Below are positions 1-18,254 of a stretch of DNA of 64,000 nucleotides, piece after piece. The notes under the pieces are model-generated. The model saw only the letters and a list, made by a program, of their open reading frames with translations. It did not search any database and was not told the DNA's origin. Positions within the stretch are counted from its first letter, which is position 1, and the number at the start of each line of letters is the position of its first letter. Made by a program: the position numbers and the translations under genes. This DNA is from Gammaproteobacteria bacterium (lineage in GTDB: Bacteria; Pseudomonadota; Gammaproteobacteria; Steroidobacterales; Woeseiaceae), in NCBI GenBank assembly GCA_029864095.1, contig JAOTUB010000005.1:1-64000 (forward strand), in the 5' to 3' direction.

Positions 1-111
1 TGACGCAAAAGTTCCAGCAACGCCAAGAATTGCGCCGACGACGAGCCCGCATGGTGCTGCTATTTGGCGATGAGACTCACTCATTTCATTCACTCCCGGA
101 ACTTCCGCTTT

Positions 112-266
112 GGGTCATTTGCGGATCCCCATGATACGCCGAAAGCGGCCGCTCGAGCCGCTGGTATTGACGGTATAGTGGACCTCGCCATTCACGGAAA
201 GCAGCCATTCGTGAGCGGCAAGTTTTGGGATCAGAACGAAAATTCCGAGCGGAAAGTATTGGCCGA
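112..266 (+). repeat. Left copy of a ~155-bp imperfect inverted repeat (partner 606-760)
   Basis: gggtcatttgcgga..cccatgatacgccgaaagc...gccattcgtgagcggcaa...gtattggccga here matches the reverse complement of 606-760 with scattered mismatches (roughly 80% by eye). Confidence 0.8.
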
Positions 267-605
267 TAATCCACTTTGTATCCGCGTGCCGCGTTCCAGC
301 CGCATCAATCCGAAAAGTGCCGGAATTTCGGGCCAATTCCGCCTAAGAGTGACGGAGTTATGTCCTGAGGTTCAGCAGTGGTTCTTGGTAATAAAGATTT
401 GAAAAACGACATCTGTATTTCAATGACTTGCGCCCTCATGGCTAGAATGAACGATTGTAAACACTTCAAAAATGACCAGTACAGTGATTTTGGATGCATC
501 GAAACGGAATAAACATTTAAAATTCTAATCATCGTTAGATTTTCAAATTCTTTTCACTCGTATAACCTAGTACGGCCATAATCTACCGTTCGTAAGCGGT
601 TAGAG

Positions 606-760
606 TCGGCCAATACTTGCCGCTCGAGCTCCCTCGTTGTTTCCCAGAATTTGCCGCTCACGAATGGCCGCTTTCGGCGAATGGCGAAGTCCGCTATACC
701 CCCAATACCAGCCGCTCAAACGGCTGCTTTCGGCGTATCATGGGAGTCCGCAAATGACCC
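606..760 (-). repeat. Right copy of the ~155-bp inverted repeat (partner 112-266)
   Basis: Reverse complement reads gggtcatttgcggactcccatgatacgccgaaagcagccg...gtattggccga, matching 112-266. Confidence 0.8.
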
Positions 761-1011
761 AATCCGGACATTGAAGCGGTACACATTATGTGAAATTAAG
801 TATATTCGCGAATTGACGCGTACCGTCCATTCCGAGATACACGAATGTGAAAACCGACAAAAGCCAAGCTATCGAAAGTCGGGGACAAAACATCACGCTT
901 CCTCATCTCGAAGCAATTTGTTATGAGCATGTGATTCCAGTCAGTTGTGCGCCGACATCATAATTATGCAGAATAATTTCTAGGTCCGATCCGGATTAAT
1001 CGGAGGTAAAG

Positions 1012-2016
1012 GTGGCATTGTTGCGAATTTTAGGCTATTCAAGCTTGTTTCTAATGATTCTCGCACTACGCGCGGGCGCTGAAACAGTTACATTGTTCGA
1101 TAACGGCTCGTTCTCAGGATCACAAGTGCAGTTGCGCAATAACATGTGCGCTGAATTTGATGAAGAGGGAATATGCACAAGCCGGTTTACCATCTACGAT
1201 CAATTTGTATTGGTAAGCGACTCAGTAATTACATCGATTGAATGGCATCAGACTGAGCATAACCCGCAAAACTATGCTGGCACCTTGCTCACCATTGGTG
1301 TCGGGACTCCTTCACCTGGATCAATACTTCACGCGATTGATGTCTTAGCCAACCGCGTATTAACACCAATTCCTGATGGTGACCCTAGATTTGAGTCTAT
1401 TCCAAGCGGATCATTCGAGGCGGCGGCTAGTGTTCCCGGCCTCGCTATCGATTTAGCGCCCGGTACCTATTGGTTAGGAATTCACAACAAATTTCCGCAG
1501 TTCGGCGGAGGTTCCCAATGGACCCAAACAATTGGAACTAATCAGACGGTTTCCGGCCGGTGGCAGGGGGAGGGAAATCCATGTGGAGCATTTCCTCCGA
1601 GTCCAGACGGTGGATGTCTGAAGTATTTTCCGCAAGAAGACTCGGCGTTTCGAGTAATCGGTCGACTAGGAATTCTAATCGAGATTGATATAAAACCCGG
1701 TAGTGATCCAAATTGCTTTAATTCAAATAGCCACGGCGTTATTCCGGTTGCGATATTGGGCAGCGCTGAATTTGACACGTCCCTGGTTGACCAGGGCAGT
1801 CTTTCATTTGGTGGTTTACAGGTGCGTGTGAGAGGGAATAAGGGTCCATTCTGTGGCTCAGAAGATACTAATAGCGATGGATTTGCCGACCTCGTCTGCC
1901 ATTTTGAAGACGACACAAGTGCCTGGGTGGCGGGCAATAGTGGCGCGACTGTTACTGGCTCCCTGTTAGACGGGACAGCTATCGAAGGATCAGATTCAAT
2001 TTGCATCGTGCCATAG
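1012..2016 (+). CDS. Secreted hypothetical protein with N-terminal signal peptide and C-terminal IDIKPGS-type domain
   Basis: 334-aa ORF; ggaggt RBS just upstream of a GTG start; hydrophobic N-terminus MALLRILGYSSLFLMILALRAGAE; C-terminal IDIKPGSDPNCFNSNSHGVIPVAILGS motif common in secreted bacterial proteins. Confidence 0.75.
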   Translation: MALLRILGYSSLFLMILALRAGAETVTLFDNGSFSGSQVQLRNNMCAEFDEEGICTSRFTIYDQFVLVSDSVITSIEWHQTEHNPQNYAGTLLTIGVGTPSPGSILHAIDVLANRVLTPIPDGDPRFESIPSGSFEAAASVPGLAIDLAPGTYWLGIHNKFPQFGGGSQWTQTIGTNQTVSGRWQGEGNPCGAFPPSPDGGCLKYFPQEDSAFRVIGRLGILIEIDIKPGSDPNCFNSNSHGVIPVAILGSAEFDTSLVDQGSLSFGGLQVRVRGNKGPFCGSEDTNSDGFADLVCHFEDDTSAWVAGNSGATVTGSLLDGTAIEGSDSICIVP

Positions 2017-2147
2017 TCGCCGCAGCCGTCACTTAGACCGGCCGCTCCTGGCCGGTTGCTGCCCTTGCAATCGTGCCATTGCACGAGAACTGAACGACCG
2101 CTTCCGAGCAAAGCAGACACTCGCCGAGTAGGGCGCTAGGAACTATG

Positions 2148-2211
2148 CAGTCACCAGCGGCACATCCAATACAATCAGTTGCTTGCAAGGCCTTGCTAAC
2201 GTACACAGCGC
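2148..2211 (+). repeat. Direct repeat copy A upstream of the MccB-like cassette
   Basis: cag..acca.cggcacatccaatacaatca...gtacacagcgc; shares an exact 20-bp core and flanking similarity with 4901-4965. Confidence 0.75.
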
Positions 2212-2499
2212 ATCCACGCCAAAGGTCGGGGCTTCACTTTGAGGACAACGGTGTGGCCACCAAAGACTCCCCGCCAGCAGACAGGGGTCATGCAACGCCC
2301 GATGCTATCGATTGTCCTTCTATTGTATCCTGATTTAATCTTTCCAGAGAGGCTAGCCCTCGGACTACACATGGCGGTCTTTACATTGTGATGGTGGACA
2401 GGTGCGCTGAATATGACTTATTCTCGGGACCGTTATAGTGTTGAGAAAGCAGCAACATTCTTGGCTTCTCTAGTTCTTGGTGATTGGGAGGGTTGACTG

Positions 2500-2718
2500 A
2501 TGGCAGCGAAGAAGAAACGCAAAACCGCAAAAAAGAAGCGCAAGGTCACGAAGAAGAAAGCCGCAGCCAAACGTGCAGTGAAAGTGCGTCTGAAATTGAC
2601 GCCAGAGCAAGAGGCGGAATTGGCTAAAGCTTTCGGTAAAGCATCCGTTCGGCGTATTAAGAACATTTCGATAGAGAAGATCGCCGGTTACCTCGCATCC
2701 GATGTTGGTATGAATTGA
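2500..2718 (+). CDS. Small Lys/Ala-rich protein ending in Asn; candidate RiPP (microcin C-type) precursor
   Basis: 72-aa ORF MAAKKKRKTAKKKRKVTKKKAAAKRAVKVRLKLTPEQEAELAKAFGKASVRRIKNISIEKIAGYLASDVGMN; gggaggg RBS upstream of ATG; stop overlaps the TTG start of the MccB-like gene; C-terminal Asn like MccA-type substrates. Confidence 0.7.
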   Translation: MAAKKKRKTAKKKRKVTKKKAAAKRAVKVRLKLTPEQEAELAKAFGKASVRRIKNISIEKIAGYLASDVGMN

Positions 2719-3677
2719 TTGTCCGCAGTTTAGTGGATGACAATCTGCCAGACGGCTGGCGCATTGAAACTACTTCTGTGCTGTCCCGTGATGGGGACAA
2801 TATAGGGATTTTGCATCCCGCAACTCTGCATGAAATTGTGGGCGATGAAATCTCTGCCATCTTAGGTCCTGCGGGCCGAGTAGCCTTAACGGAAGGAACC
2901 AACTACATCGAGGCATTGTCCGCATGTGGCGCATTGCTGCTCGGGCACAGGGAAGAGATTTCCAAAGTGTCAACGCTACTTCAGTCCGCGCGGATGAGCC
3001 GAACAACATCGTACTTGTGTTCTATTTCGGGGAATTGCCGCCAAGTGCTGACAGCGGTTCGACACATACAGACAGCTCGTGTAGCCGTAGTGGGCTGTGG
3101 CGGTATAGGTTCGCTTGCTGCCATGTTATTGGCGGGTAGTGGAATAAGGTCTTTAACGCTTGTCGATAATGACACAATCGAGGAGTCCAACCTAAACCGA
3201 CAAATCGTGTGGTCAAAAGATGATATTGGTCAACTCAAGAGCGATGTGCTGGCAAGAGAGCTGCAGAGGCGATTTGACGATGTATCGTTGGCTCTTTACC
3301 CACGACGTGCAGATAGAAGCTTTCTTCAACTGCTGTTGTCGGAGAACGATGCTGTCCTGCTAACGGCAGATAGCCCTCTCGGCATAGTTCCAGCCGCGCG
3401 CCGCATCGCTGCTCGCTTGTGTTCGCTGTTGGTTACCGGCGGTTACAGTTTCAAACATGCTATTGTTACTGTAACAAATAGTCAGTCTAACTCTGCCGGT
3501 AAAGAAGGGAATTGGCAGTCTCTCGAGTTTTGCATACCCCCAAGTTTCGGGCCAGCAAACGCTCTTTTGGCCGGCGCTACAACGAGTGCTCTACTGCACC
3601 AATTATGCGAGTTAGCTGACTACGGCGCTTCATCCATCTTTGGATGGGACGTAGATACGCTCAAAAACTCTGCCTAA
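2715..3677 (+). CDS. ThiF/E1-like adenylyltransferase, MccB-like
   Basis: 320 aa; AVVGCGGIGSLAAMLLAGSGI nucleotide-binding motif, LVDNDTIEESNLNRQIVWSKDDIGQLKSDVLARELQRRF and a TAD motif in the position of the MccB SAD motif; ~115-aa N-terminal extension like the MccB peptide-clamp. TTG start overlaps the upstream stop (TTGA). Confidence 0.85.
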   Translation: MIVRSLVDDNLPDGWRIETTSVLSRDGDNIGILHPATLHEIVGDEISAILGPAGRVALTEGTNYIEALSACGALLLGHREEISKVSTLLQSARMSRTTSYLCSISGNCRQVLTAVRHIQTARVAVVGCGGIGSLAAMLLAGSGIRSLTLVDNDTIEESNLNRQIVWSKDDIGQLKSDVLARELQRRFDDVSLALYPRRADRSFLQLLLSENDAVLLTADSPLGIVPAARRIAARLCSLLVTGGYSFKHAIVTVTNSQSNSAGKEGNWQSLEFCIPPSFGPANALLAGATTSALLHQLCELADYGASSIFGWDVDTLKNSA

Positions 3678-3683
3678 GTCCTA

Positions 3684-4868
3684 ATGAGCAGTTCTGGCTT
3701 GAATTTCGTTGAGCGTTACGAACATGTCCTCGATCTAAGTGATCGTGCTCGCTCCCTCGGTTTGGCATTGTGTCGTGCCCAACGTCACTTCGGGGACTTC
3801 TTTCTAAAGACGTTACTCGCAAGAGTCGCCGGGCAAGTATTCTGGCTCCACGTTGCACTGGCAAAGAAAGTAGAACTCTTGGGGCCGCTATCAGCGAGAC
3901 TGCAATTTTCAAGAAGATCAGTTACCGCCGAGCCCCCAACACTCAAACGCTTTCAATCAGAATTGTCTGCCATTAACAAATCGCTTCGGAAGCTCAGAAA
4001 ATCAGCGAGAAACCATGTAGATACAAGCTTAGAATTCTTGGCGGCTGATGCTTTGACAAGGCTTGAAGATTGTTTTGCGGAAATTGAATTGTGGATCGAC
4101 GATGGGCCAACCCCTGTCACAATGCTAGCGGCATCTGATGGGCTACTCCGCGACTGTATTTTGTATGAACAAACTGGTCCCGCTCGAAAGGGCAACGAAC
4201 TCAGGGACCGTATCCTACAAAAAGATAGCATTCGTGCGTTATATCTGTCCGCCAATGCATACCTCGAGCTGTCTGCCGTTGACATCGTTTCCGATCTTAT
4301 TTTGATTGTCGATGCCGAAAGGCCCAATGGCTTTCAGTCACTGATAGCAGATTTGGCCAGGCAGCTAGTTGACGAAGTTCGGCATGCAGAACTTCTGGCT
4401 AATCGCGTTGCTGACATGGGCTTCGAATTTGGATGTGCGCCGGTAACACTTCACAGTTGGCGAGCATACAATTCTGTTAATACACTGCCAGAAAAGCTTG
4501 CGATGCAGCACGTTCTCCAAGAGGGTGTAGGATTGGATGCCAGTGCGCGGAACGTCAAGAAGCTACAAGATATTGGAGATCTCAAATCAGCGGATCTTTA
4601 CGCACAAATCGTTGCAGATGAAATGAATCACGTGCGCCTCGGCACGCGGTGGCTGAAGAGGCTTGTCGGTCGGCGAATGTGGAAAGTTGTAGCGAAGGTT
4701 GAGGACGTTTCCAAACAGATCGACCCGCTTCCGTCTATTCCGATTGCTGTTGAATTGCGTTTGGCATGTGGATTTTCACGTAATTACGTGTCAAATCGAC
4801 GATTAGCCCACGGTGCCCAAGACCTGAAAGACCACCTTCCTCAATGGCACAATAACTGCGACACCTAA
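3684..4868 (+). CDS. DUF455-type ferritin-like di-iron protein with long N-terminal extension
   Basis: 394 aa; DEVRHAELLANRVADMGFEFG...LPEKLAMQHVLQEGVGLDAS..NVKKLQDIGD...IVADEMNHVRLGTRWLKRL follows the DUF455 pattern (DEARHF..LL..RL..LG..YG; RLA...LEARGLD; DEI.HV..G..WF). 6 nt between genes. Confidence 0.75.
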   Translation: MSSSGLNFVERYEHVLDLSDRARSLGLALCRAQRHFGDFFLKTLLARVAGQVFWLHVALAKKVELLGPLSARLQFSRRSVTAEPPTLKRFQSELSAINKSLRKLRKSARNHVDTSLEFLAADALTRLEDCFAEIELWIDDGPTPVTMLAASDGLLRDCILYEQTGPARKGNELRDRILQKDSIRALYLSANAYLELSAVDIVSDLILIVDAERPNGFQSLIADLARQLVDEVRHAELLANRVADMGFEFGCAPVTLHSWRAYNSVNTLPEKLAMQHVLQEGVGLDASARNVKKLQDIGDLKSADLYAQIVADEMNHVRLGTRWLKRLVGRRMWKVVAKVEDVSKQIDPLPSIPIAVELRLACGFSRNYVSNRRLAHGAQDLKDHLPQWHNNCDT

Positions 4869-4900
4869 AGCCTTCGCGGAGCAGGACGCCCAATCTTAGG

Positions 4901-4965
4901 CAGCTACCAACGGCACATCCAATACAATCAACGGCTTAGGGGGGGCTTGGTAACGTACAAAGCGC
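4901..4965 (+). repeat. Direct repeat copy B downstream of the MccB-like cassette
   Basis: cagctaccaacggcacatccaatacaatca...gtaacgtacaaagcgc; matches 2148-2211. Confidence 0.75.
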
Positions 4966-5076
4966 GCCGGCGCTACGCATCGACGGCTACCGGTCGCTTT
5001 CTAAACTGCCGCTGAGGAACTACTGACCCAAAGTAGACATCTTCTACTCTGGACGGAGCAGCGATGATGCGTCGGG

Positions 5077-5141
5077 TGTCCGTCTTCAAACAAATGGAAC
5101 AGACGAAGCGATTATCTAATGGAGAGCTTTGTTCCTCGTTG
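5077..5141 (+). repeat. 65-bp direct repeat, copy 1; includes a solo IS3-type left-end-like sequence
   Basis: tgtccgtcttcaaacaaatggaacagacgaagcgattatctaatggagagctttgttcctcgttg, 4 mismatches to 13201-13265, which contains the left terminus of the IS at 13219. Confidence 0.9.
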
Positions 5142-5478
5142 CCCTGACTGCGCCGAAAAAGGATTTAATCCCAAGGATACTGCCTTGCTTTATTATCTCG
5201 CTATCACAACAGACGATGGCGATACGCGATACAAAATTGGAATTACTAACCGTGCAGTTGAGCAACGGTTTAATACGCCAGACTTGGCGCGCATCCGCAT
5301 TGTAAAAACATGGCGATATGCCATTGGTCGCGCTGCGGCAGAACGTGAAGCAGAGATTCCTTGCCAATGTGCAGGGGACGAATACTACGGACCAGATATT
5401 TTGACATCTGGTGGTAATTCCGAATTATTCACGCACGATATATTGGGGCTGGATGCTGGCGATGACTCGGGTGATTAA
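5119..5478 (+). CDS. GIY-YIG/T5orf172-like small protein
   Basis: 119 aa; CPDC N-terminal motif, YYLAITTDDGDTRYKIGITNRAVEQRF resembling the GIY-YIG core (Y...YKIGIT...R). Confidence 0.6.
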   Translation: MESFVPRCPDCAEKGFNPKDTALLYYLAITTDDGDTRYKIGITNRAVEQRFNTPDLARIRIVKTWRYAIGRAAAEREAEIPCQCAGDEYYGPDILTSGGNSELFTHDILGLDAGDDSGD

Positions 5479-5562
5479 TCGTCTGCTCGCCGCCGTTTCC
5501 GACAGGTTGGGAATGCCGCGCCGAACGGCTGCTATGCTTAGCAGCAGCCTTTCGCCCAGTTG

Positions 5563-6174
5563 TTAGCGACTCTCGTTGATCCGGACGTGTAGCTTCGGAA
5601 AGTCGCGGTCGGGTGGCGCGTAGACTTTGCTAACGACAGCTTTCAGCTCACGCCCTGCATCCAGCCATTGCGCAATCTCCTTATTTTCGGTCCGCGGCAG
5701 ATAGCCAACCCGTCGCCACTTGCTGCCGAATATGCCAGGCACCTTTGCCAGAACGGCGATAGCGTTTGGGTCGTGCTTGTTGCCTGGTTCACGCCTAAGT
5801 TGCAGCGTGGTTCCTTTTTCACAATGAGAGCGAATCAACTTTGCTCGCGAATCAAACCCAGTCCCAGCCACGACGTAGACGCGGCTCTTGATAGCCCTAC
5901 GTGAACCGGACTTCCGTGTGCGTTTTCGCTTGGCGGTTTTTTTGGTCGGTAATTGGGCGATCTCCAGAAGCAGCGCCTCGAGTTTTGCTTTAGTTTCTGC
6001 GTCCGGTCCCTCACGCAGCGCGATTCTGGCCACGGCGCCAGCAAGGTCCGGATCATTGTCCTTGCGCAACGCTGAATCGGCATCTTTCAGAAGTTCAGCA
6101 GGGTCACCAATTTCTCCCATATCTTGTCCCTTCGGCCAGATATGGCCGCTGCTCTGACTGACCCAATCATTCAA
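5563..6174 (-). CDS. HIRAN domain-containing protein
   Basis: 203 aa; C-terminal VYVVAGTGFDSRAKLIRSHCEKGTTLQLRREPGNKHDPNAIAVLAK...VGYLPR typical of HIRAN. Confidence 0.75.
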   Translation of the reverse strand: MNDWVSQSSGHIWPKGQDMGEIGDPAELLKDADSALRKDNDPDLAGAVARIALREGPDAETKAKLEALLLEIAQLPTKKTAKRKRTRKSGSRRAIKSRVYVVAGTGFDSRAKLIRSHCEKGTTLQLRREPGNKHDPNAIAVLAKVPGIFGSKWRRVGYLPRTENKEIAQWLDAGRELKAVVSKVYAPPDRDFPKLHVRINESR

Positions 6175-6267
6175 TAATAGCCCATGCTCACCCGTCTATA
6201 CGTAGAGGCCCTATTATCCGACGAGGACTGAACCGCACCGGGTATACCGGAGACTCTTTTGTGTGAG

Positions 6268-7165
<898 letters not shown>

Positions 7166-7166
<1 letters not shown>

Positions 7167-7486
7167 TACTTCGGTCGGCGGTCGAGCTCCGCCTGGGCAA
7201 AATAGGCTGAGGCCTTACGCAGGATCTCGTTGGAGCGCTTCAGCTCGCGGTTCTCACGCCTGAGTTGCTTCAGCTCTTCCTGTTCGTCGGTCGTCTGGCC
7301 CGGCCTAATACCCTGGTCACATTGTGATTGTCGAACCCAGCGACGCAACGTCTCCGGTACGCAGCCCAGCTTCTCTGACAAAGAACGAATGGCCGCCCAC
7401 TCCGACGATCCTTCCTTCTGCTGCTCTTCAACCAGCCGTACCGCTCTCTCCCTAAACTCCGGGGAATATCGTTTTCTTGTATTCAT
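7166..7486 (-). CDS. IS3-family transposase orfA
   Basis: 106 aa; MNTRKRYSPEFRERAVRLVEEQ...LRRWVRQ...ELKQLRRENRELKRSNEILRKASAYFAQAELDRRPK. Confidence 0.9.
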
Positions 7487-7914
7487 GACCCAATCCTCTC
7501 AAAGAATTGAGCCTCCGAGAAACCCGGGGCGGTTCAATGCTCGAGAGGATGTATGCAAAGAGTCAGCGGCCAGAATTGGCTAGGTTGCTTGAGATGCGGC
7601 GAGAAGAACTCGATGACCTGTGGAAATGCTTAAGTCGCGCGCCACATGATCCAAAGCGCCACAAACCCGTCACGACTAGAGAATACAATTTGCTGCAAGC
7701 GACTCGAATGGTCCGGGAAATCGCCAGCACATTGCTAGGGCGCGTGGCGTAGAGGTCTCCTTTTGCCCGGAAGCCACCCGTCACCCTGGCTGAGAGTGAA
7801 CGGCTGGTAAGCGCTCGAAAGCAGCCGGTCGAGTGATGAACTAACGAACGACTGCTACTGAACCCACAGCAGCCGTTCGCATTCCCATCTCAATTCACTC
7901 GCAAAGGACCAGAA

Positions 7915-8184
7915 ATGGACGTTGACGATTCGGTTCGGACACGATTTGGCGTAGTCGCATGCCTGCGTGACATGGGAAACGGCACAAGTCGTCTATTCAT
8001 CGACGATGTTGAAGGGAACCGCATTGAAAACCCGATAGATTGGTCTCACAAGTGGTTCGTGACCTTCACGCCGGAAATGGAGAACGACGCCATTGAGAAG
8101 ATGGACATCGACGACGAACTTCTAAGGACAATCGGTGCGGCTGTTCTGGCCAGATGTTTCATACACAACAACCCGACCGATTGA
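7915..8184 (+). CDS. Hypothetical protein
   Basis: 89-aa ORF with possible RBS (aaagga) upstream; no family recognised. Confidence 0.4.
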   Translation: MDVDDSVRTRFGVVACLRDMGNGTSRLFIDDVEGNRIENPIDWSHKWFVTFTPEMENDAIEKMDIDDELLRTIGAAVLARCFIHNNPTD

Positions 8185-8386
8185 GTTTTCAACGGCTGGT
8201 TCTGGCCGTTTGCAGCCGGTCGCCACTTCCCTAAAGGGGACACTTGAGCGGCCGGATTCGGGAAAAGCAGACGTTCAGCCTGGGTGGCAAGAAGGGGTCA
8301 GAACTTGCCGCCGATCGCTTTGATCCACAATTCATTGTAGTCGTCAGTTACTGCTCTTCTCTTTTGACCTTTCCCTGTCTGTTGGT

Positions 8387-9664
8387 TTAAGCAGGCGTGT
8401 GCTTCATTGAAACCACGACAGGCTCGGGCCCCCCAGCGGCTTCCTCAGCGGCCTCGGTTGGTAGCTGGATCGGCGGCAGGCGCCTTTCTGCGGGAACGTC
8501 CTTCTCGCGTCGTAGCGTGTTGACTTGGATATGTGGCCACAGCGTCGTCTCGCCATCCGAGCCAAACATGAATTCGAAGTCCACAATCTGCTCGTACTGC
8601 AGCTGGTCAATGACCTTCTCGCTCTCAGGATCGAGAATTTCCTCCAACCACATGCGAAAGCGCATCCGGGCTACTCGGCAGTAGCGCTCAATCATCACGT
8701 TGTTGATGGTGGCGCCTTGAACACCTGTCTGGTGGAACGAGTCCAGCTCGATCAAATCGTACTTCTGAAAGTTCAGGCCCTCGTTGGCATCAATCAACTT
8801 CAGGTTCGGTTGAACCGTGTATGGAAACTTGGCCCCGAATTGGTCGTAGTTGAAAATCTTCTCGAAGTAGGCACGCCCGCTGTTGACGCCGCTCTCTCTA
8901 GGGCCTCCGTCAGGCTTTTGCTTTTCGCGCGGAAGTTTTGTCCAGTCCGGCTTGGCCCGCGATCCTTGTGTGAGGTCGGGATCGGGGGCTTCAAGATTGA
9001 TGCCCATGGTTGGCGACACGGAAAGATATTGTGGTTCCCAGAGATCAGCAATTTCGGGCGCCTTGCCGACTTCGGATTCCTTAATGTTGCCGGTCAAGTG
9101 AATGGTTGTGCCGTGGGGAATTACTCCAGAACGCGAGATCGTATGAGGTGGTATAAACTGGGAACCAAGTTGTCCCGGGGCCAAGACTGGATCAGCACCG
9201 TCCGTTTTCACTGATTCTGCACTCGATGGATGCCTGAACAGGTTTGGCGGTTTTTGATAAGCGCTATTGGGATCCCAAGGCATATGGTTGTCACCCATCC
9301 AGATGTACATTCCGTCTTCGAAGTGTTGGAGGGCGTTGTCGTTGTCAATGATCGCAGTTTCGTACTTGACGGCACCGTTGAACTGCTCGTTTGATCCTGC
9401 ACGATTGCGGACGGGGGCGTTGACTTGAGTGAACTTGAGCTGCTCCCTGTACTCCTGGGACTTGAAGTGGAAGACGCCAAATACCGTCTCTGAAGATGTG
9501 CCAGGCGATGGCATCGGCGTGGTGTGCAGCCCAGTCGGACCGCCTTTCCAGTTAACCCAGGTGCCATTGAGTTTGGACAGGATGCCGAATTGTGGCCCGG
9601 TGGGCAGCCCTTCCTTCCATTCCGGGTAGGGTTTGACGGAAGATTTTTGTGGTTCCTTTGGCAT
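8387..9664 (-). CDS. Heme-binding/peroxidase-like protein (FMP-like)
   Basis: 425 aa; GPQFGILSKLNGTWVNWKGGPTG...FHFKSQEYREQLKFTQVNAPVRNRAG...YIWMGDNHMP pattern recalled from proteins annotated as heme-binding or FMP-type peroxidase; downstream of flavin oxidases. Confidence 0.5.
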   Translation of the reverse strand: MPKEPQKSSVKPYPEWKEGLPTGPQFGILSKLNGTWVNWKGGPTGLHTTPMPSPGTSSETVFGVFHFKSQEYREQLKFTQVNAPVRNRAGSNEQFNGAVKYETAIIDNDNALQHFEDGMYIWMGDNHMPWDPNSAYQKPPNLFRHPSSAESVKTDGADPVLAPGQLGSQFIPPHTISRSGVIPHGTTIHLTGNIKESEVGKAPEIADLWEPQYLSVSPTMGINLEAPDPDLTQGSRAKPDWTKLPREKQKPDGGPRESGVNSGRAYFEKIFNYDQFGAKFPYTVQPNLKLIDANEGLNFQKYDLIELDSFHQTGVQGATINNVMIERYCRVARMRFRMWLEEILDPESEKVIDQLQYEQIVDFEFMFGSDGETTLWPHIQVNTLRREKDVPAERRLPPIQLPTEAAEEAAGGPEPVVVSMKHTPA

Positions 9665-9798
9665 GGTCTTTTCCTTTGGTCTGTAGCTCTGTCGGCCTTA
9701 CCGGAGCTCTCTGCAGCTCGGCGTTATTCGAAGCCTTGATCGAAGAGGCGAGCCTCCGCAATCCGTCGTCAGGCGCTTCTTGCAGCGCAACACGGCCG

Positions 9799-11604
9799 CT
9801 ACCCGCAGATCAGTGGATACTGAGGAGCGGTGGTAGTGGCAATCGTCTTGGCGTCGAGGTACTGGGTCAACACAGACTCGGCCGTGCAAAATGCACCCTC
9901 CACCCAAGCCTGATCGTTGGAGTACGCCGACCCCACGATGTAGACCGCCCCATCGCCTCCCGCCAGCTTGGCGGGAGTGCGGATCTCCTGCATCACGTCC
10001 ACGATGTCGTAGTGAGCAGCCCAGGCGTGGTATCCGGCGCCGAACGGACTCAACGCCCAGTCCATGAACTTGGTCTCTAGTGGCTGGGGTATGTCCCAGG
10101 CCTTGTCTGGATCGCCCCAGTGCACCTTGGCCAGCTCGAGCATGAGCATTTGTATCATGACCCGAGAGGCTTCTCCGGCAGCTTGGAGCGGCTGATAGTT
10201 CTGACTCAGCGGCACCTGACGACGCTGTGTCACCTCGAGCTCGAGCTCCTGCCAAAAGCGGGTGAACCGCATATCGTCATACGAGGCGAGAAGGCCGTAG
10301 ATTGTCTGGCTGCCGCCGTTCGGCGCGTTGTTGCCGAAGTAGTAGATCTGCCGTAGCGGCAGGTCGGTGATGGTCGGGCCGAACACGTTGGCACCGGGCG
10401 AACGGTTGTGTTGAGTGTTGGACTTGTTCACCAGATCCGGCGGGTATTTGCTCTGCTCCCACCAGGGGGCATCGAAAAACATAGCGATCTTGTAGGAAGG
10501 CTGCTCGATTACCGATTCAACGTAGTTCTGGACCCTGGTTGCGTTGAGGAAATCGGTCTTTCCACCCATGTCCTGGTAGCGGGTAGCCCGAGCCACCAAT
10601 TCGATCGAATGCCTTGGCATCGCAAGAAACGCGTAGTCCGCGGTTTGGGGCGGGCCTGCCGGCGTGTTCGGGTTGGCTGCACTGGCGATTTGATAGTAGA
10701 TCGTCGAGCCTTCCATCCAGATGGAGTGGAGCCGAGTCTGCTGGGTCAGGGTGAAGTCGATGCCTCTCGATTGAGCTGCCGACTGGGCTTGTTTGAATAA
10801 CTCGACGAACAACTGCGAGTAGCCGGTTTTGAGAGTCTTGAACGTACCGCCCGGGGCAAACTCACCGTTGTAGACAGCAGCGTTCGCGGCGTTCCAATTG
10901 ATGACGTTGGAGCTGTAACCACCGGCATCAGCCGCATACTGATAGCCTTCGTTGCCAGCCTGGTCGTAGAAAAAATTCCAGTAGCCGATGTTGCCCACGT
11001 TGTCGCCAGCGTTGTAAACCACCGAGCTCGTGCCCGACGGAAGCCTGCCACCGGAGTAGAAACGGCACTGCGCCGTCCTACACGAGACGTCGCTCCCTTC
11101 GGTCATCAGACCCGATATGTGGCTGACCTCATCGTCGGCGGGCTTCTCATTGACCCCGGGCGTGTTGTACGGCGCGGTTACCGGGCAGGTGGGCGGGGGT
11201 TTGCTCGACGGAAGCTGATTCTGGTAGAAGGGAACGCCTCTCAGATAGAAGAACGGATTATCGGTGGTCAGGAAGTTGATCACCTCGCCGTCCAGACCCA
11301 GCAGGTGGACGGTCGTGGTGACGAGCTGATGGCCCTCGGTCCCATCCCACTCCAGATAGCGCATGCCACCGATCTCCACATAGGAATTGTCGGCACGGCC
11401 CTGGTAGTGGTGGCTACAAATCCGGCCGGCAGGAAGTCGGGTGCCGCCGTCGCCGGCGGCAAACGAGAAGTGGCCCCATTCGACGAGCTCGATCGAGTCA
11501 CCCTCGTTGACCAGGGGATTACCGTCGGTCCTCGTGCCCGTGATGAGCCGCCACGCCGTGTAAAGACCGCCGGGACCGGCGCCGAAAACCTTGTAGTTGG
11601 CCAT
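9799..11604 (-). CDS. FAD-dependent amine/L-amino-acid oxidase-like protein
   Basis: 601 aa; N-terminal FAD motif VFGAGPGGLYTAWRLITG; C-terminal GGDGAVYIVGSAYSNDQAWVEGAFCTAESVLTQYL typical of amine oxidases. Confidence 0.7.
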   Translation of the reverse strand: MANYKVFGAGPGGLYTAWRLITGTRTDGNPLVNEGDSIELVEWGHFSFAAGDGGTRLPAGRICSHHYQGRADNSYVEIGGMRYLEWDGTEGHQLVTTTVHLLGLDGEVINFLTTDNPFFYLRGVPFYQNQLPSSKPPPTCPVTAPYNTPGVNEKPADDEVSHISGLMTEGSDVSCRTAQCRFYSGGRLPSGTSSVVYNAGDNVGNIGYWNFFYDQAGNEGYQYAADAGGYSSNVINWNAANAAVYNGEFAPGGTFKTLKTGYSQLFVELFKQAQSAAQSRGIDFTLTQQTRLHSIWMEGSTIYYQIASAANPNTPAGPPQTADYAFLAMPRHSIELVARATRYQDMGGKTDFLNATRVQNYVESVIEQPSYKIAMFFDAPWWEQSKYPPDLVNKSNTQHNRSPGANVFGPTITDLPLRQIYYFGNNAPNGGSQTIYGLLASYDDMRFTRFWQELELEVTQRRQVPLSQNYQPLQAAGEASRVMIQMLMLELAKVHWGDPDKAWDIPQPLETKFMDWALSPFGAGYHAWAAHYDIVDVMQEIRTPAKLAGGDGAVYIVGSAYSNDQAWVEGAFCTAESVLTQYLDAKTIATTTAPQYPLICG

Positions 11605-12852
11605 CTACCTCTCCTTGGCGGTATCGGGGCCGCCCCAATTGATCGCGAAGTTGGAGCGATCGATTCTGTAATCTCCGAATTCGAAGTACTGGAGGTACTC
11701 GTCCGCCAGCATCTGGCAGATCATCTCGCCGAGGATAGGGATGAACTTGGCTGCCCAGCCGGCGCTGTAGGTGACAATGCTCTGAGCGTTCGGAACAGAG
11801 CCGGGGGCATAGTCGAGCAGCAGCTCTTTGGTCTCCGCTCCACTGGAAAGCGCAATCAGGCAGGTCGAAGTGAACTCGGACGTCGAGTCGAGGCCCATCA
11901 TATGGTCGCGTACCCAGGCTTCGTTGTAACCCAGGCTCTTTTCACTCGGATCGGGATTCCTCTGGCTCGGGTCCGTGAGGATCTTGTCCGGGATGTCGGG
12001 AGCTACCCTGATGTAACCGGGGTGAGCCCAATCGACTTCAGGGAAACCGTAGTACAGAGAAGTGTTCTGGGGCTCCTGGAAGACGAACCAGGTTGGCAGC
12101 ACCAACTGCGGGTCGGTCTTGCGATAGTAGGCGGACGACATTTCCCAGATCTCGATGTCGACCGAAAGACCCAGATGGGCAAGAACGACATTGACGTACG
12201 GACCGGGCGTTATGGCCAGCTTTTGCGTCGTGTAGGTCGCTTTGTCGGTCGTTACCTCGATGACGCCGCCCTCGACCGAAGAAATGCCGATGACCGTTTC
12301 CTGATCGTGGAACTCCACCGGTCCCGTCGCCTCGGCGCCTTGGAACAGGGCACGCTCGGTCGCCTTGAGGTTGATGATTCCACCGTCCGGCTGAAAAAAC
12401 CCACTGTAGTCCGACGGCAGGCCGCGAAACGGGTAAGCGCTTTCGATGGCGGCCGCGTTGGCAAGCGCCGTGTAGGCGATGCCTAGCGAGTCCATCGTAT
12501 TCATCGCGGCCTGAATGCCGCCTTCTTGCGAAGACAACGCCGGGTCACCGAACCAAAGGCTGCCACCGTGTCCCTTGAGCAGGTCGCTGCTATAGCGCTG
12601 AATGTCGTTCCAGAAGGGAATCGCCGACAGAGCCAACTCCGACATGTAGTGTTGGGAATACTGCACCCGGAATTGGCGCGACGCGCCGGCCGAACTGCCC
12701 TGGTCATTTAGAAAGCCGAACTGCTCGATCACAAGCGTGCGCCACTGCCGGCCCGCGGCATGATACGCGGTGGAAAGACCCACCGCTCCGCCGCCGATGA
12801 CGACCAGATCGTAGACAGTACCTGTGGTCATGAGACCACATCCGCAGAGCAC
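11605..12852 (-). CDS. FAD-dependent oxidoreductase, sarcosine/N-methyltryptophan oxidase-like
   Basis: 415 aa; YDLVVIGGGAVGLSTAYHAAGRQWRTLVIEQFGFLNDQGSSAGASRQFRVQYS. The stop codon (TAG) directly abuts the ATG of the next gene. Confidence 0.8.
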   Translation of the reverse strand: MLCGCGLMTTGTVYDLVVIGGGAVGLSTAYHAAGRQWRTLVIEQFGFLNDQGSSAGASRQFRVQYSQHYMSELALSAIPFWNDIQRYSSDLLKGHGGSLWFGDPALSSQEGGIQAAMNTMDSLGIAYTALANAAAIESAYPFRGLPSDYSGFFQPDGGIINLKATERALFQGAEATGPVEFHDQETVIGISSVEGGVIEVTTDKATYTTQKLAITPGPYVNVVLAHLGLSVDIEIWEMSSAYYRKTDPQLVLPTWFVFQEPQNTSLYYGFPEVDWAHPGYIRVAPDIPDKILTDPSQRNPDPSEKSLGYNEAWVRDHMMGLDSTSEFTSTCLIALSSGAETKELLLDYAPGSVPNAQSIVTYSAGWAAKFIPILGEMICQMLADEYLQYFEFGDYRIDRSNFAINWGGPDTAKER

Positions 12853-13200
12853 AGCTCCCCTGCCTTAGGGGCCGCGATGGCGGCGCTCACAACAAATAGG
12901 GCTCCGGCTACTAGTACAAAAGTCGGTCTTTTGATAGCGGTTTCTCCTCGTACTTTGGGATGCGGACCCAGGGTCGGACACGCAGGCAAACACGCACGTT
13001 TTGTATAAGTATAGTCTGTGAGAATTTCGAAGCGAGGCGGCACGGCCACACAGAAACGGCGAAGGACCGCTGTGGGTCGCAAGCCGACGGCGTTACCGCA
13101 GTAACGTGACCGGCAGCTCCGGGTCAGAAGCCGCCATTCTAACTCGAATCACCAGGACGGCTAGAGTCGGCCACTTGCGGACCGTGGCCTAAGCGCTGCT

Positions 13201-13265
13201 TGTCCGTCTTCAAACAAATGGAACAGACGTAGCGATTATTTAGTGGAGAGTTTTGTTCCTCGTTG
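13201..13265 (+). repeat. 65-bp direct repeat, copy 2 (spans the left end of IS copy 2)
   Basis: Nearly identical to 5077-5141 (4 mismatches). Confidence 0.9.
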
Positions 13266-13348
13266 TCATGTTACGCGGCGTGTCGTTGGTAGCGCAAACG
13301 ACGTTTCGCGAGAGTCTTTCGCTTGATCCTTTCTCGTTGTGCCAGTAT

Positions 13349-14251
13349 TCATTGCCCGCGTCCAAAGTAAATATCGGCTGGCGTCAGGTTTTTCAAGCTC
13401 TCATGGTATCGCTGATGGTTGTAGTGATCGACGAACGCCTCGATCTGCGTTTCAAGATCACCGGGCAGAAAGTAGTTCTCCAGCAATATCCGGTTCTTCA
13501 ATGTCTGATGCCAGCGCTCGATCTTGCCTTGTGTTTGTGGATGATACGGAGCACCGCGAACGCGACTCATCTCGTTGCCAGTGATCCAGTCGGCGAGCTC
13601 GTTTGAGATGTAGCTCGAGCCATTGTCAGAGAGCAAGCGTGGCTTGTGGGTGACATCGGCCTGGTCACAACCCGATGCCTGAAGAGCAAGCTCCAGGGTC
13701 TCGGTGACATCGCGGCTGGTCATGCCGGTACACAGCTTCCAGGCAATGACGTAGCGGGAGAAGTCATCCAGAATGGTGGACAGATACATCCAGCCCCAAC
13801 CGATGATCTTCAAGTACGTGAAGTCGGTCTGCCACATCTGATTGATGGCCGTGGTCTTGTCCTGGAACTCGCTAGCGGCCTTCATGACAATGAAGGCCGG
13901 GCTGGTGATCAGATCATGGGCTTTGAGAAGCCGGTATACCGAGCTTTCCGAGACAAAATAGCCCTCGCTATCGGTGAAAGTAACGGCCAGCTCACGCGGG
14001 CTCAGTTCGGGACGGTCCAGTGCCAACGTGATTAATCGGGCCCGGACATTGTTGGGAATACGGTTCCACACCCGGGCCGGCAAAGGCGCTTTGTCTTGCA
14101 GCGCTGTTTCCCCGTCGGAACGATAGTGTGCGTACCAGCGGTAGAACGTGGTGCGAGCAATGCCCAGCCTATCGAGCGCCTGCTTGGCCGGAAGGTGCGA
14201 CCGTTCTACCAATCGGATGATCTCAAGCTTCTCAGAGGCCGGGTATCTCAT
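13349..14251 (-). CDS. IS3-family transposase orfB (DDE integrase)
   Basis: 300 aa; INQMWQTDFTYLKIIGWGWMYLSTILDDFSRYVIAWKL...LLSDNGSSYIS...HPQTQGKIERWHQTLKNRI. Confidence 0.95.
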   Translation of the reverse strand: MRYPASEKLEIIRLVERSHLPAKQALDRLGIARTTFYRWYAHYRSDGETALQDKAPLPARVWNRIPNNVRARLITLALDRPELSPRELAVTFTDSEGYFVSESSVYRLLKAHDLITSPAFIVMKAASEFQDKTTAINQMWQTDFTYLKIIGWGWMYLSTILDDFSRYVIAWKLCTGMTSRDVTETLELALQASGCDQADVTHKPRLLSDNGSSYISNELADWITGNEMSRVRGAPYHPQTQGKIERWHQTLKNRILLENYFLPGDLETQIEAFVDHYNHQRYHESLKNLTPADIYFGRGQ

Positions 14252-14622
14252 TCGAGTTCCTCCCCATCCCCGAGCATGCTTTTTTTGAGCAAGCGCAGTT
14301 CCAGCGTTTGCTCGGCAACTACCTCTTTGAGATCTCGGGCTTCACGCCTCAGGTCAGTGACTTCGCTAGTGTTGGCCTGACGGACAATGTCTCCGGCCAG
14401 GCGCTTCTTGCCGGCCTCCATGAAGTCCTTAGACCACTTGTAGTACAGATTCTGGGCAATACCTTCGCGTCGACACAGCTCGGCAATGCTGTCTTCGCCA
14501 CGAAGCCCATCCAATACAATGCGGATCTTCTCCTCCGCACCGTATTGCTTGCGCGTCTTGCGCTTGATGTCTCGAATGGTTTGTTCTGACGACGATGGCC
14601 GTCCTGTCGGTCTCTGTTTCAT
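14248..14622 (-). CDS. IS3-family transposase orfA
   Basis: 124 aa; RKQYGAEEKIRIVLDGLRGEDSIAELCRREGIAQNLYYKWSKDFMEAGKKRLAGD; overlaps orfB at ATGA. Confidence 0.95.
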   Translation of the reverse strand: MKQRPTGRPSSSEQTIRDIKRKTRKQYGAEEKIRIVLDGLRGEDSIAELCRREGIAQNLYYKWSKDFMEAGKKRLAGDIVRQANTSEVTDLRREARDLKEVVAEQTLELRLLKKSMLGDGEELE

Positions 14623-14708
14623 CTCAACTCCTCAGGTTAGGATGAACAAAAACACTCCTTTAAACCACAACTAAATCTGTTCCATAGGCGGTGACGGCGC
14701 ACACGCCA

Positions 14709-15164
14709 CTATTGCGGCCCTTGGCTTGATGCTGAGGAATCGAGTGTTTTCAACTTCGAGATCGCGATCATATGCTTATTGTCACGCGCCGAATATCGAG
14801 AGTTGTCGCGAACTACAGCGAATTCACCGAAGTAGACTTCCGACCACGTCCCATCGGGATTCACACCAACAACCAGCAGTAGATCGGCTTCGTCTCTGAA
14901 GCCAATTTGGTTGGCATGATAATTGGTCTTGATCTGAACAGTCTTACCATCAACCGTCGAGGCATCGTAGCCACTCGATCCGCCGGGTGCTTTAGAAAGG
15001 CCGTAATGATTGATCGCGACGAATTCGCCGAAGTCACCAAGCAGGTTACCAAGACCGGTCCACCGGTACTCAGGAGCAAGAGCACGCAAAGCTCTCTGCG
15101 CCGTAAAGATGCTAGCAAGCATATGCTGAACGGCAGCTACTTTGTCAGGAATTTCAGCCATCAA
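14709..15164 (-). CDS. DUF6998-like / PD-(D/E)XK nuclease-like protein
   Basis: 151 aa; LGDFGEFVAINHYGLSKAPGGSSGYDASTVDGKTVQIKTN, with a D...QIK pattern typical of restriction-endonuclease-like folds. Confidence 0.55.
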   Translation of the reverse strand: MMAEIPDKVAAVQHMLASIFTAQRALRALAPEYRWTGLGNLLGDFGEFVAINHYGLSKAPGGSSGYDASTVDGKTVQIKTNYHANQIGFRDEADLLLVVGVNPDGTWSEVYFGEFAVVRDNSRYSARDNKHMIAISKLKTLDSSASSQGPQ

Positions 15165-15175
15165 CTCATTGGGTC

Positions 15176-15931
15176 CTACGTTGATTTGTTGAGATTAATC
15201 AGAAGTTCACTGCTCCGTTTTTCGCCTGGACCTGTTACGTGATAACTTCCATCGTTCGTCTGATATACGTACCTTTTACTGGTCAATGCCTGCAAATTCC
15301 GTGTGACTGTGGAAGGAGAATACTGGGTTGATCTGCCCAATTCAGTCCGGCTAAGTCCCGTTGATCCAGCATCAATAAGTAACAACAGTATCTCAAGTTC
15401 GCATGGCACGGCATGAGTTACGACGGTTTCTCCGGCAATGGACTCAATTAGCGGCGTGTAGGTGCGCATCAACGAAGCCATCGCACTTTCAACCTCTGCC
15501 TCATCTGACAGATGAAACTGTCGAATAAATTCAGCGACAATCCATGATGCAGCGTGCACGGCTAGCGATGCGTCAATTCTACGTGGGTCCAGTTCTTTGA
15601 CGTGAACAGCTCCCGTCTTGCTCCTAATGTCGTAGACCATCGACATCGCAACGCGTGGAACAAGAAGACGGAGTGACTCCGGCAGCGATGTGTCGTTCTC
15701 TAGCGCTACTCTGGTTTTCGACGCGTTTTTGATTTCGGGCAGCACTTTGCCTGTTCGTAGGAATTCTAGTGCCCTGAGTGTATTCTCAACGAATTTTCCG
15801 GACGCGGAAAGACACCCATCGAGATCGTTTTTTCTGTAGCGTGTGACAATCTCATCGTAACTCTTGAGCAGGTCCGTAGCTATTTCGCTATCGATGGCGG
15901 ACGAAAGGTCGTTTAGCAATTGGCTGGACAT
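15176..15931 (-). CDS. Uncharacterised protein with C-terminal MarR-like winged helix
   Basis: 251 aa; C-terminal LEILLLLIDAGSTGLSRTELGRSTQYSPSTVTRNLQALTSKRYVYQTNDGSYHVTGPGEK reads as a wHTH with beta-wing. Confidence 0.6.
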   Translation of the reverse strand: MSSQLLNDLSSAIDSEIATDLLKSYDEIVTRYRKNDLDGCLSASGKFVENTLRALEFLRTGKVLPEIKNASKTRVALENDTSLPESLRLLVPRVAMSMVYDIRSKTGAVHVKELDPRRIDASLAVHAASWIVAEFIRQFHLSDEAEVESAMASLMRTYTPLIESIAGETVVTHAVPCELEILLLLIDAGSTGLSRTELGRSTQYSPSTVTRNLQALTSKRYVYQTNDGSYHVTGPGEKRSSELLINLNKST

Positions 15932-15936
15932 GCGTG

Positions 15937-16643
15937 TTAAGTCTTTTTCGTCCTATAAACCCACACTGATTTTCCGTCCACTTCCTCTTTTTTCCGCGTC
16001 AAGGTCCTGTCCGTGCGAACGGCCTTGTTGACGTACTGCGGGATGGTCGAGAGCTTGACCATTACTGCCTCCTCGTGAAATCTGTCTCGAACCTCGGCCG
16101 TGGTACGCCCGTTGTCAAAAAACCCTGAGCGATCCACTTATCAATCGTTTCGCCAAGTCCCTTGTTCTTCTTGTTGCTTGTTTTCTTGCTTGTCTTCGGC
16201 TTGGCTTTTTTTGCTGATTTCTTTTCGGCCGATTTTTTGTGGCGATTTCCTGGTTTATTGGCTTGACCCGCACCAGTTATGGCTTTTTTTACGGAATCGA
16301 GATGGCTGGGACGGACGGAATATCTGCTGTTCTTGACCGATACGAGATGACTATCTTTCAGCTCCACCAATATCCGCCTTACAGTTCCTCCGGCTATTCC
16401 CAGCATTTCTGATATGTCTGCGGGCTTCGCGCCGGTCGGTACGTCATCGTCAGTTACGAACGGCCAACCTTTTAGGCTAACCAGGTAGACGAGAATTTTC
16501 GCTTTGCTTCCCAACCCAGCAAAATCTGGTGTAAATGCGATTTCCAATTCGTCGATATCGTACCGAACGTAATCAGCTACAACTGATTCGATCGCTTCTT
16601 CCGTCATTGCGGCCTTTTGCGCAACTAATTCTTTCAATCCCAT
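15937..16643 (-). CDS. Winged-helix/Lys-rich-linker protein in two frames joined by a T_TTT_TTG slippery site (frame 0: 16062-16643, 193 aa; -1 extension to 15937)
   Basis: Frame 0 runs ...GLGETIDKWIAQGFLTTG; the -1 frame continues as ...GFFDNGRTTAEVRDRFHEEAVMVKLSTIPQYVNKAVRTDRTLTRKKEEVDGKSVWVYRTKKT, which reads as a coherent wHTH domain. The shift point is the 6-T run (minus strand) at 16117-16122. Confidence 0.6.
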
Positions 16644-16707
16644 TGACTGTGTCTCTTATCGATGCAAACGCGAGGCCGCAAGTACTCGACTGCGCGGGTT
16701 CACAGCC

Positions 16708-17259
16708 TTATTGCGACTTGGAAGATTTAGGCAAGTCGTGTTCAACGAAATTCTCCCCCATAGTCGTCAGTTGTAGATTCTCAAGATCGCTTGAATCGAG
16801 CCATCCGGCGGAACCAGTTTGATGAATCATGTTCTTGAGATCCGCTGGCAGTCGCCACTTCAGCCACTTGAACGACGTGTAGACATGATTGATCGATACT
16901 GAACCCGCATCCACGTGGTTCGCCAAGTAGTATGCGCACACCGCGATTTTCGCCTTCATGCTGCTTGGCTGTTTCTGCCCGACAAATTCGGCCAAGGAAA
17001 GGCTATCCTTCGGGTTGAGATTCAAATCCTTGACGAGTGTTAGGGCTTCTTTTTTCTTGGGTTTCGAGGTACCTTTTGGTTTTGGCTTAGCCCTAGCAGC
17101 CTTTTTGAGGGTGGCTGCCGGCCTCGAGACTGCGGTATCACCGACATACTTATCCCATGCCCAACGAACCAAACGTTCGGCCGCTGCCTTATCATTCAGT
17201 CTATTGAGGGTATCTGAAATACTCTTTAGTGCTTCAATTTCATCTACTTTTTCTGTCAT
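16708..17259 (-). CDS. Uncharacterised protein with Lys/Pro-rich linker
   Basis: 183 aa; helical N-terminus, KKAARAKPKPKGTSKPKKKEAL linker, C-terminal domain LSLAEFVGQKQPSSMKAKIAVCAYYLANH...; first gene of the minus-strand operon. Confidence 0.55.
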   Translation of the reverse strand: MTEKVDEIEALKSISDTLNRLNDKAAAERLVRWAWDKYVGDTAVSRPAATLKKAARAKPKPKGTSKPKKKEALTLVKDLNLNPKDSLSLAEFVGQKQPSSMKAKIAVCAYYLANHVDAGSVSINHVYTSFKWLKWRLPADLKNMIHQTGSAGWLDSSDLENLQLTTMGENFVEHDLPKSSKSQ

Positions 17260-17944
17260 AACCTGATTCTCTCGATCACAAAACTGGAAGATCTATTTCC
17301 CCGTCAAGGAAGTCAGACCCGAAAGTATCAGGAAGTTGCCTATTTATCCACATTTTCTTGGAATTTTCGTTGCACGTCGGATTTTTCGTCAAACCTTCTA
17401 TCGTGTTAATTTCAGGGCTAATTGGACGAACACATGAACTGTTCACTAAATGAAAGAGTAATTTGGATCATTTATTTTGATATTTCGACTATAAATTATT
17501 GATTATCATGGCTTTTACTTTATTCGAAAGTTGTCGGACTTTTTCTATTTCAGCGCTTTGGTCATGTAACTTTCTATTCGCTTGGTCACGAAAGAGATGG
17601 ACAGGTTTCTTGATTTCGAGATTATGTACAAAAGAGCTTGGCCCCCCCCGCAATCCGGTGTCGCAAGTCCTTGATCCCTGGCATTTTTCCATTTCCGTAG
17701 CTGATTGGCAGATGCATAGCGCCACGAAATACAGGACCGGTGCTAGTCGATCCTTACTCAGGCTAATCGCGCCCGCCAATCGTCACGAGTTAGGGATGAG
17801 TTGGGAGTGCCGAGACGCTTACGCGCAGAAACGTAGCCGTTGGTTCATCCGCCCTGTTCTAGGGATTCACGGCAACGAATTGTGTGTGCGACTCCCGAGT
17901 GATCTCCGGATGCCCGACGGACCACATGGCCCGTGAGGCGGAGA

Positions 17945-17994
17945 TGGCGCGCCCGGAGAGATTCGAACTCCCGACCGCCTGGTTCGTAGCCAAG
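17945..17994 (-). tRNA. 3' fragment of a tRNA-Arg(ACG)-type gene (anticodon arm through CCA); no matching 5' acceptor arm
   Basis: Minus strand reads cttggctacgaaccaggcggtcgggagttcgaatctctccgggcgcgcca, i.e. anticodon loop, T-arm (ttcgaat), acceptor 3' strand and CCA. The complementary 5' gcgcccg is not found upstream. Confidence 0.65.
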
Positions 17995-18185
17995 AGGACC
18001 GCAGATTAGACGAACTACCAATCTGCTCTCAACATCACATCCGCGCGAGTTCAAAACATTAGGAGCCCAGGTCCTTTGCCGTCTGAGCCTATCTGGCTGA
18101 TCAAATATTAGCCAGTCGTCAGCTTAGCAACCAATATTGGTTCATGCGTCTTCTAGTTCTCGCCGGTAACGCGCTGACTTCGTGC

Positions 18186-18222
18186 AGTTCAAAACTTTAT
18201 TAGGTAGTTCAAAACTTTATTA
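18186..18222 (+). repeat. Short tandem direct repeat (agttcaaaactttatta x2, 20-bp period)
   Basis: agttcaaaactttatta at 18186-18202 and 18206-18222; a partial third copy (agttcaaaacatt) at 18048-18060. Confidence 0.9.
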
Positions 18223-18254
18223 CGAAGGACCAGCAGGTCGCGGACATGCTCAGG

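Follow-up and report, generated by a model that had tools for sequence, protein, structure and literature searches.

A candidate ThiF-type peptide-activation cassette with a DUF455 di-iron partner in a gammaproteobacterium of the family Woeseiaceae

The window analyzed here (the whole stretch of 64,000 nucleotides, taken from the end of a 70-kb contig) carries, ∼2.5 kb from the contig start, a compact three-gene cassette that encodes a small basic protein (gene 1), an E1-type adenylating enzyme related to MccB (gene 2), and a ferritin-like protein of the DUF455 family (gene 3). The explanation that we favor, with about even confidence, is a ThiF-type peptide-activation system, similar to those that make ribosomally synthesized and posttranslationally modified peptides (RiPPs), with a di-iron partner. 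In such a system, gene 2 would encode an enzyme that binds a polypeptide, probably the product of the upstream gene 1, and adenylates a carboxylate at the expense of ATP; the C-terminal carboxylate is the simplest candidate. Once activated, this end could rearrange, or it could be attacked: microcin C offers a precedent for a nucleotide as the attacking group, and pantocin and GRC peptides offer one for an internal nucleophile. The gene 3 product could contribute an oxidative step. We infer that gene 1 encodes the substrate, that its C-terminal Asn is the modified site, and that the gene 3 protein acts on the same product.

The products of ThiF-type RiPP enzymes vary widely in their chemistry, and most of these enzymes are uncharacterized. 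To our knowledge, the pairing of such an enzyme with a DUF455 protein would be the first known; no ThiF-type RiPP enzyme paired with DUF455 or another ferritin-like protein was found in the literature searched. If real, the pairing would tie an uncharacterized family of iron enzymes to peptide tailoring. A more specific proposal, that the cassette represents a new class of ThiF-type RiPPs in which a zinc-free relative of MccB acts on a long basic precursor to activate its C-terminal Asn and DUF455 then oxidizes the product further, seems rather doubtful; if true, it would assign a function to DUF455. The readings weighed below, namely, a peptide cassette, a microcin C-type system, an E1 of another kind, and an unrelated gene 1, partly overlap.

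Organization and genomic surroundings of the cassette

All three genes are on the plus strand at window positions 2500 to 4868 and code for products of 72, 320, and 394 amino acids (aa). The features of the cassette and its immediate flanks are as follows.

2144..2211, plus strand: degenerate direct repeat of ∼68 bp, copy located 5' of the cassette (80% identical to the copy at 4897..4965, with an E value of 7e-10)
2486..2492, plus strand: Shine-Dalgarno-like GGGAGGG, ∼8 nt 5' of the gene 1 ATG, read in the sequence
2500..2718, plus strand: gene 1, 72-aa basic protein, candidate substrate or precursor (ATG-start open reading frame [ORF])
2715..3677, plus strand: gene 2, 320-aa ThiF/E1-type adenylating enzyme, MccB-like (TTG-start ORF; Pfam ThiF)
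3684..4868, plus strand: gene 3, 394-aa DUF455 ferritin-like protein (ATG-start ORF; Pfam DUF455)
4897..4965, plus strand: downstream copy of the ∼68-bp degenerate direct repeat (repeat search)

The TGA stop codon of gene 1 (2716 to 2718) overlaps the TTG start codon of gene 2 (2715 to 2717), so that the two genes share 4 nt, and genes 2 and 3 are separated by just 6 nt. These coordinates agree with the tight packing and the stop/start overlap noted in the preliminary description of this DNA, and, judging from this arrangement, the three genes seem to form one translationally coupled unit. Also in agreement with that description, no microcin-type exporter or immunity gene was found among the neighboring genes in the visible part of the contig, and neither was a protease gene. 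Since the contig begins only 2.5 kb upstream of the cassette, further upstream genes may have been cut off. No genes for a ubiquitin-like protein (Ubl), an E2, a JAB protein, or a sulfur carrier adjoin the cassette.

The chromosomal core starts at ∼18 kb, with glmS, glmU, mnmG, and mnmE genes (recognized by family match) and ATP synthase genes (recognized by eye). The region downstream of glmS is a common site of insertion. In the window, glmS occupies positions 18255 to 20087 on the minus strand, and the region downstream of it (positions 1 to 18254) is variable: it holds two insertion sequence (IS) elements and genes for a HIRAN protein, a DUF6998 protein, an FMP-type peroxidase, and an FAD-dependent amine oxidase, and it includes lower-GC stretches (48 to 51%, versus ∼58 to 60%). 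No Tn7 transposition genes were seen in this region. Given its position downstream of glmS, the lower GC content, the IS elements, and the unrelated genes, the cassette probably belongs to a variable island. Two other features of this region are an ALIL pseudoknot (Rfam accession number RF01497, 113 bits) at positions 7092 to 7208 on the minus strand, inside the genes of an IS3-type transposase, and, at the very start of the contig, an imperfect inverted repeat of 127 nt (positions 104 to 230 and 642 to 768), whose arms are 87% complementary and lie 411 nt apart.

The direct repeat that flanks the cassette is an addition to the preliminary description. Its third copy (73%) is located elsewhere in the genome (G000:C173:1765-1845). 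The flanking repeats and the low GC content prompted a comparison with integron cassette arrays, which was negative: the folding of the repeats was within the range of the shuffled controls, no attC core sequence was seen in them, and no integron integrase scored above the cutoff.

The E1-type enzyme and the small upstream protein

The gene 2 product belongs to the ThiF family (Pfam accession number PF00899, E value of 3e-31) and contains all the motifs listed for it in the preliminary description (GCGGIG, VDNDTIEESNLNRQ, GQLKSD, and TAD). It retains every residue of the E1 adenylation site: Asp151, Asp153, Asn159, Arg162, Gln163, Lys175, Asp212, and Asp219. The N-terminal extension, put earlier at ∼115 aa, does exist but is somewhat longer, with ∼126 aa preceding the GxGGxG loop. 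The earlier assignment of this enzyme as MccB-like was upheld by sequence and by fold. MccB is its best sequence match in PDB (76.6 bits, E value of 1.9e-20), followed by the ubiquitin E1 and ThiF at ∼52 bits and PaaA at 48 bits; in the Foldseek comparison of the AlphaFold model, MccB occupied ranks 1 to 23 over the full length, with PaaA, also a full-length match, coming next. The best plasmid matches were the MccB genes of Escherichia coli (query residues 49 to 244, E value of 4e-17), and the best viral match was an MccB gene followed by a gene for an exporter of the major facilitator superfamily in a virus-classified contig (E value of 2e-22).

Several features set gene 2 apart from MccB. 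The enzyme has no CxxC motifs, and therefore both Cys pairs of the zinc site are absent, a point not made in the preliminary description. From the start of the glycine loop it extends for 194 residues; nearly all other examined members of the family have both CxxC pairs and at least 210 residues from this loop onward. The peptide clamp of MccB is built in part from ∼20 residues at its C terminus (reviewed in PMC12250964). Gene 2 encodes no counterpart of this clamp tail, and its crossover loop is shorter. In the first phylogenetic tree, gene 2 was grouped with other long branches; after the removal of the worst of these, it joined the side of the ThiF enzymes that carry a RiPP recognition element (RRE) (support of 95/89) and was left outside the clade of MccB proper (support of 99/98).

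The N-terminal part of the enzyme is where the proposed clamp/RRE similarity would be expected, and here the sequence comparison gave no support for it. Residues 1 to 118 scored no better against MccB N termini than shuffled sequences did (30 of the 100 shuffles attained the score), and profile comparison detected no sequence similarity of residues 1 to 88 to the MccB recognition domain. In the AlphaFold model, the core is predicted with a pLDDT of ∼90, and residues 28 to 90 are mostly below 50. The modeled N terminus consists of three strands and three helices in the order expected for an RRE, at a pLDDT of ∼45, and, since the underlying alignment held one true MccB, its agreement with the MccB fold is not independent.

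These observations bear on a somewhat unlikely reading, in which gene 2 encodes an E1 of another kind (a small-molecule, tRNA, or bacterial Ubl-type enzyme) and gene 1 does not encode its substrate. The E1 core taken alone matches the MoeB/ThiF profiles equally well (177.9 versus 168.9), comparison with PADLOC gave strong matches to E1-E2 proteins, and the approximately unbiased (AU) test rejected neither the grouping of gene 2 with generic E1s (P = 0.22) nor that with bacterial Ubl-type E1s (P = 0.26). However, the best and longest full-length matches of gene 2 are to MccB, and in the profile alignment, MccB-type enzymes cover residues 89 to 317, compared with residues 116 to 236 for MoeB and ThiF. 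The lack of an adjoining gene for a Ubl, E2, JAB, or sulfur carrier protein, along with a gene 1 product that does not end in Gly-Gly, also speaks against this reading.

The 72-aa protein encoded by gene 1 is rich in Lys and Arg (18 and 6 residues, respectively; pI of ∼11), with a net charge of +15 in residues 1 to 26, and had no matches to ubiquitin-like families in the Pfam search. As described earlier, its C terminus reads ASDVGMN, so that it ends in Met-Asn. Homologue searches with gene 1 found none; a weak match in one sampled genome (G336, E value of 0.04) was discarded, as it has no E1 gene alongside and overlaps an unrelated reading frame. The working criteria used to call MccA genes are a strong Shine-Dalgarno sequence, a C-terminal Asn, and a location immediately upstream on the same strand, and the MccA-type precursors reported so far consist of 7 to 8 or 17 to 56 aa (PMC6495379). 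Gene 1 satisfies these criteria, although its 72-aa product is longer than any in those ranges. Asn is expected as the last residue by chance in a few percent of proteins, so the terminal Asn alone is weak evidence.

A narrower version of the favored explanation is a true microcin C-type system, in which gene 2 would activate the Asn of the gene 1 product via a succinimide, a nucleotide would be joined by a P-N bond, and the gene 3 protein would modify the product. We consider it improbable as it stands. The earlier proposal of microcin C-type chemistry is supported in part. In its favor are the similarity of gene 2 to MccB, its nearest solved relative, the complete set of adenylation residues, and the upstream Asn-ending ORF with its strong Shine-Dalgarno sequence; against it are the missing zinc site and clamp tail, the exclusion from the MccB-proper clade, and the precursor length. 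Genes for an MccC exporter and for MccE, MccF, or HIT-type immunity proteins were also not found nearby. With the zinc site and the tail missing, the enzyme placed outside the MccB clade, and its N terminus unmatched, microcin C-type chemistry becomes just one of several chemistries of ThiF-type RiPP enzymes that could be considered here.

Another observation beyond the preliminary description is that residues 24 to 46 of the gene 1 product match the HTH_OrfB_IS605 domain with 26.6 bits, above the Pfam cutoff of 21. Judged by this motif, gene 1 may instead have originated as a nucleic acid-binding or TnpB-derived sequence, which weakens the case for it as the substrate. Taken to its end, this view makes gene 1 an N-terminal fragment of transposon-derived TnpB/OrfB or some other nucleic acid-binding protein, leaving genes 2 and 3 as the functional unit; it is compatible with gene 2 encoding an E1 of another kind. 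The very basic N terminus and a weak match to Cas12u4 would fit such an origin, which we nevertheless regard as unlikely: the match covers only the N-terminal half of the 47-position model, no TnpB remnant is present downstream of gene 1, and the strong Shine-Dalgarno sequence and the overlap with gene 2 point to a maintained and coupled gene.

The DUF455 protein and the distribution of the cassette

The gene 3 product was correctly recognized in the preliminary description as a di-iron protein of the DUF455 type: it matches this family (Pfam accession number PF04305) with an E value of 5.5e-30 and 105 bits, against a cutoff of 34.3, and has the complete set of ligands (Glu195, Glu231/His234, Glu280, and Glu313/His316), which are invariant across an 18-row alignment. 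In the structural model, the DUF455 domain is preceded by an all-helical N-terminal extension, and matches to bacterioferritins are weak (best E value of 0.006). The LEARGLDVTP motif of ordinary DUF455 proteins is replaced by QEGVGLDAS. The nearest long relatives, encoded on the Geobacillus plasmid pGS18 (L047) and in Tahibacter (L083), are similar to gene 3 in their size (∼390 to 415 aa), the long N-terminal region, and the QEGxGLD or GEGNGLD motif, with ∼31 to 33% identity across the di-iron domain. In contrast to gene 3, neither has an E1 gene alongside, and the copy on pGS18 is flanked by transposases on both sides.

Seventeen DUF455 relatives were collected in the genome scan with patterns steered by an alignment that included two artificial rows; these rows served solely to steer the DUF455 search patterns and entered no other result. 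In 14 of the 17 loci (L082 and L084 to L096), tandem DUF455 genes are accompanied by a gene for a conserved helical protein of 186 aa, and most of these loci also contain genes for PqqD, HPr kinase-like, and S26-like proteins. Such operons are found in Gemmatimonadota, Acidobacteria, and Betaproteobacteria (e.g., L089:5607-9406 and L087:4827-9655) and look like a peptide-maturation system. The PqqD protein of L087 has a C-terminal tail that ends in ISVASCWWGACSVGCP and shows a below-cutoff match to TIGR04353 (HPr-rel-A PqqD). The DUF455 group nearest to gene 3 comes mostly from these operons; its members there have the identical ligand set but, unlike gene 3, are encoded by short, paired genes. 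No homologue of gene 2 was found alongside any of the DUF455 relatives, and the idea that the helical N terminus of gene 3 corresponds to the helical protein of 186 aa from these operons received no support from profile comparison. The recurrent peptide-maturation-like setting supports, without proving, a tailoring role for gene 3, and the tandem operons with PqqD and HPr kinase-like genes provide an independent hint of a link between DUF455 and peptide tailoring.

No second copy of the cassette was found in ∼1,200 sampled genomes, and no relatives of the cassette were detected in a scan of the genomes of 85,462 species, viral contigs, phages, and plasmids; the contig scans relied on exact matches to short peptide patterns and may have missed distant relatives. 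When genes 2 and 3 were each used alone to scan viral and genome contigs, nothing was found. Two-sequence DUF455 alignments made poor search patterns, and the best-scoring E1s of related genomes matched no more than the generic core (approximately residues 116 to 220). Accordingly, the conserved MccB-DUF455 pairs that had been proposed as a check were not found in any of the genomes, viral contigs, phages, or plasmids scanned, and, in the absence of a second copy, there is no co-conservation. On the Acinetobacter johnsonii plasmid pXBB1-8, a separate locus (L135:789-5384) has a small ORF together with genes for an ABC transporter and two ThiF adenylyltransferases, the latter two adjacent to each other, and is possibly a two-E1 peptide-modification system.

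Comparison with known peptide systems

The E1 systems that act on ThiS, MoaD, or ubiquitin-like proteins have a partner that ends in Gly-Gly and an enzyme with zinc-binding CxxC motifs, whereas the cassette combines a Met-Asn end with an enzyme devoid of CxxC motifs and a small protein without a match to ubiquitin-like families.

Microcin C (MccA-MccB-MccC) is closer. As in that system, a short Asn-ending ORF with a strong Shine-Dalgarno sequence lies directly 5' of the gene for an MccB-like E1, which keeps the adenylation residues and has MccB as its best match by both sequence and fold. The cassette differs from microcin C in its 72-aa basic precursor, its DUF455 partner, and the lack of an exporter or immunity gene, and its enzyme differs from MccB in having no zinc Cys pairs, a short C terminus, and a position outside the MccB clade.

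The remaining ThiF-type RiPP systems include those of PaaA (pantocin), GrcB, EnfB, and IndF (PMC12250964 and PMC12150305). The ind cluster has transporter and protease genes, and the cassette has none; the review of ThiF-type RiPP enzymes does not mention a di-iron partner, such as the DUF455 protein found here. In such enzymes, an RRE is expected to be fused to the ThiF domain; the N terminus of the gene 2 product is RRE-like in a low-confidence model (pLDDT of ∼45), with no match by sequence. What they share with the cassette is a stand-alone, N-terminally extended ThiF enzyme encoded next to a small ORF, and PaaA is the fold match of gene 2 that comes next after MccB.
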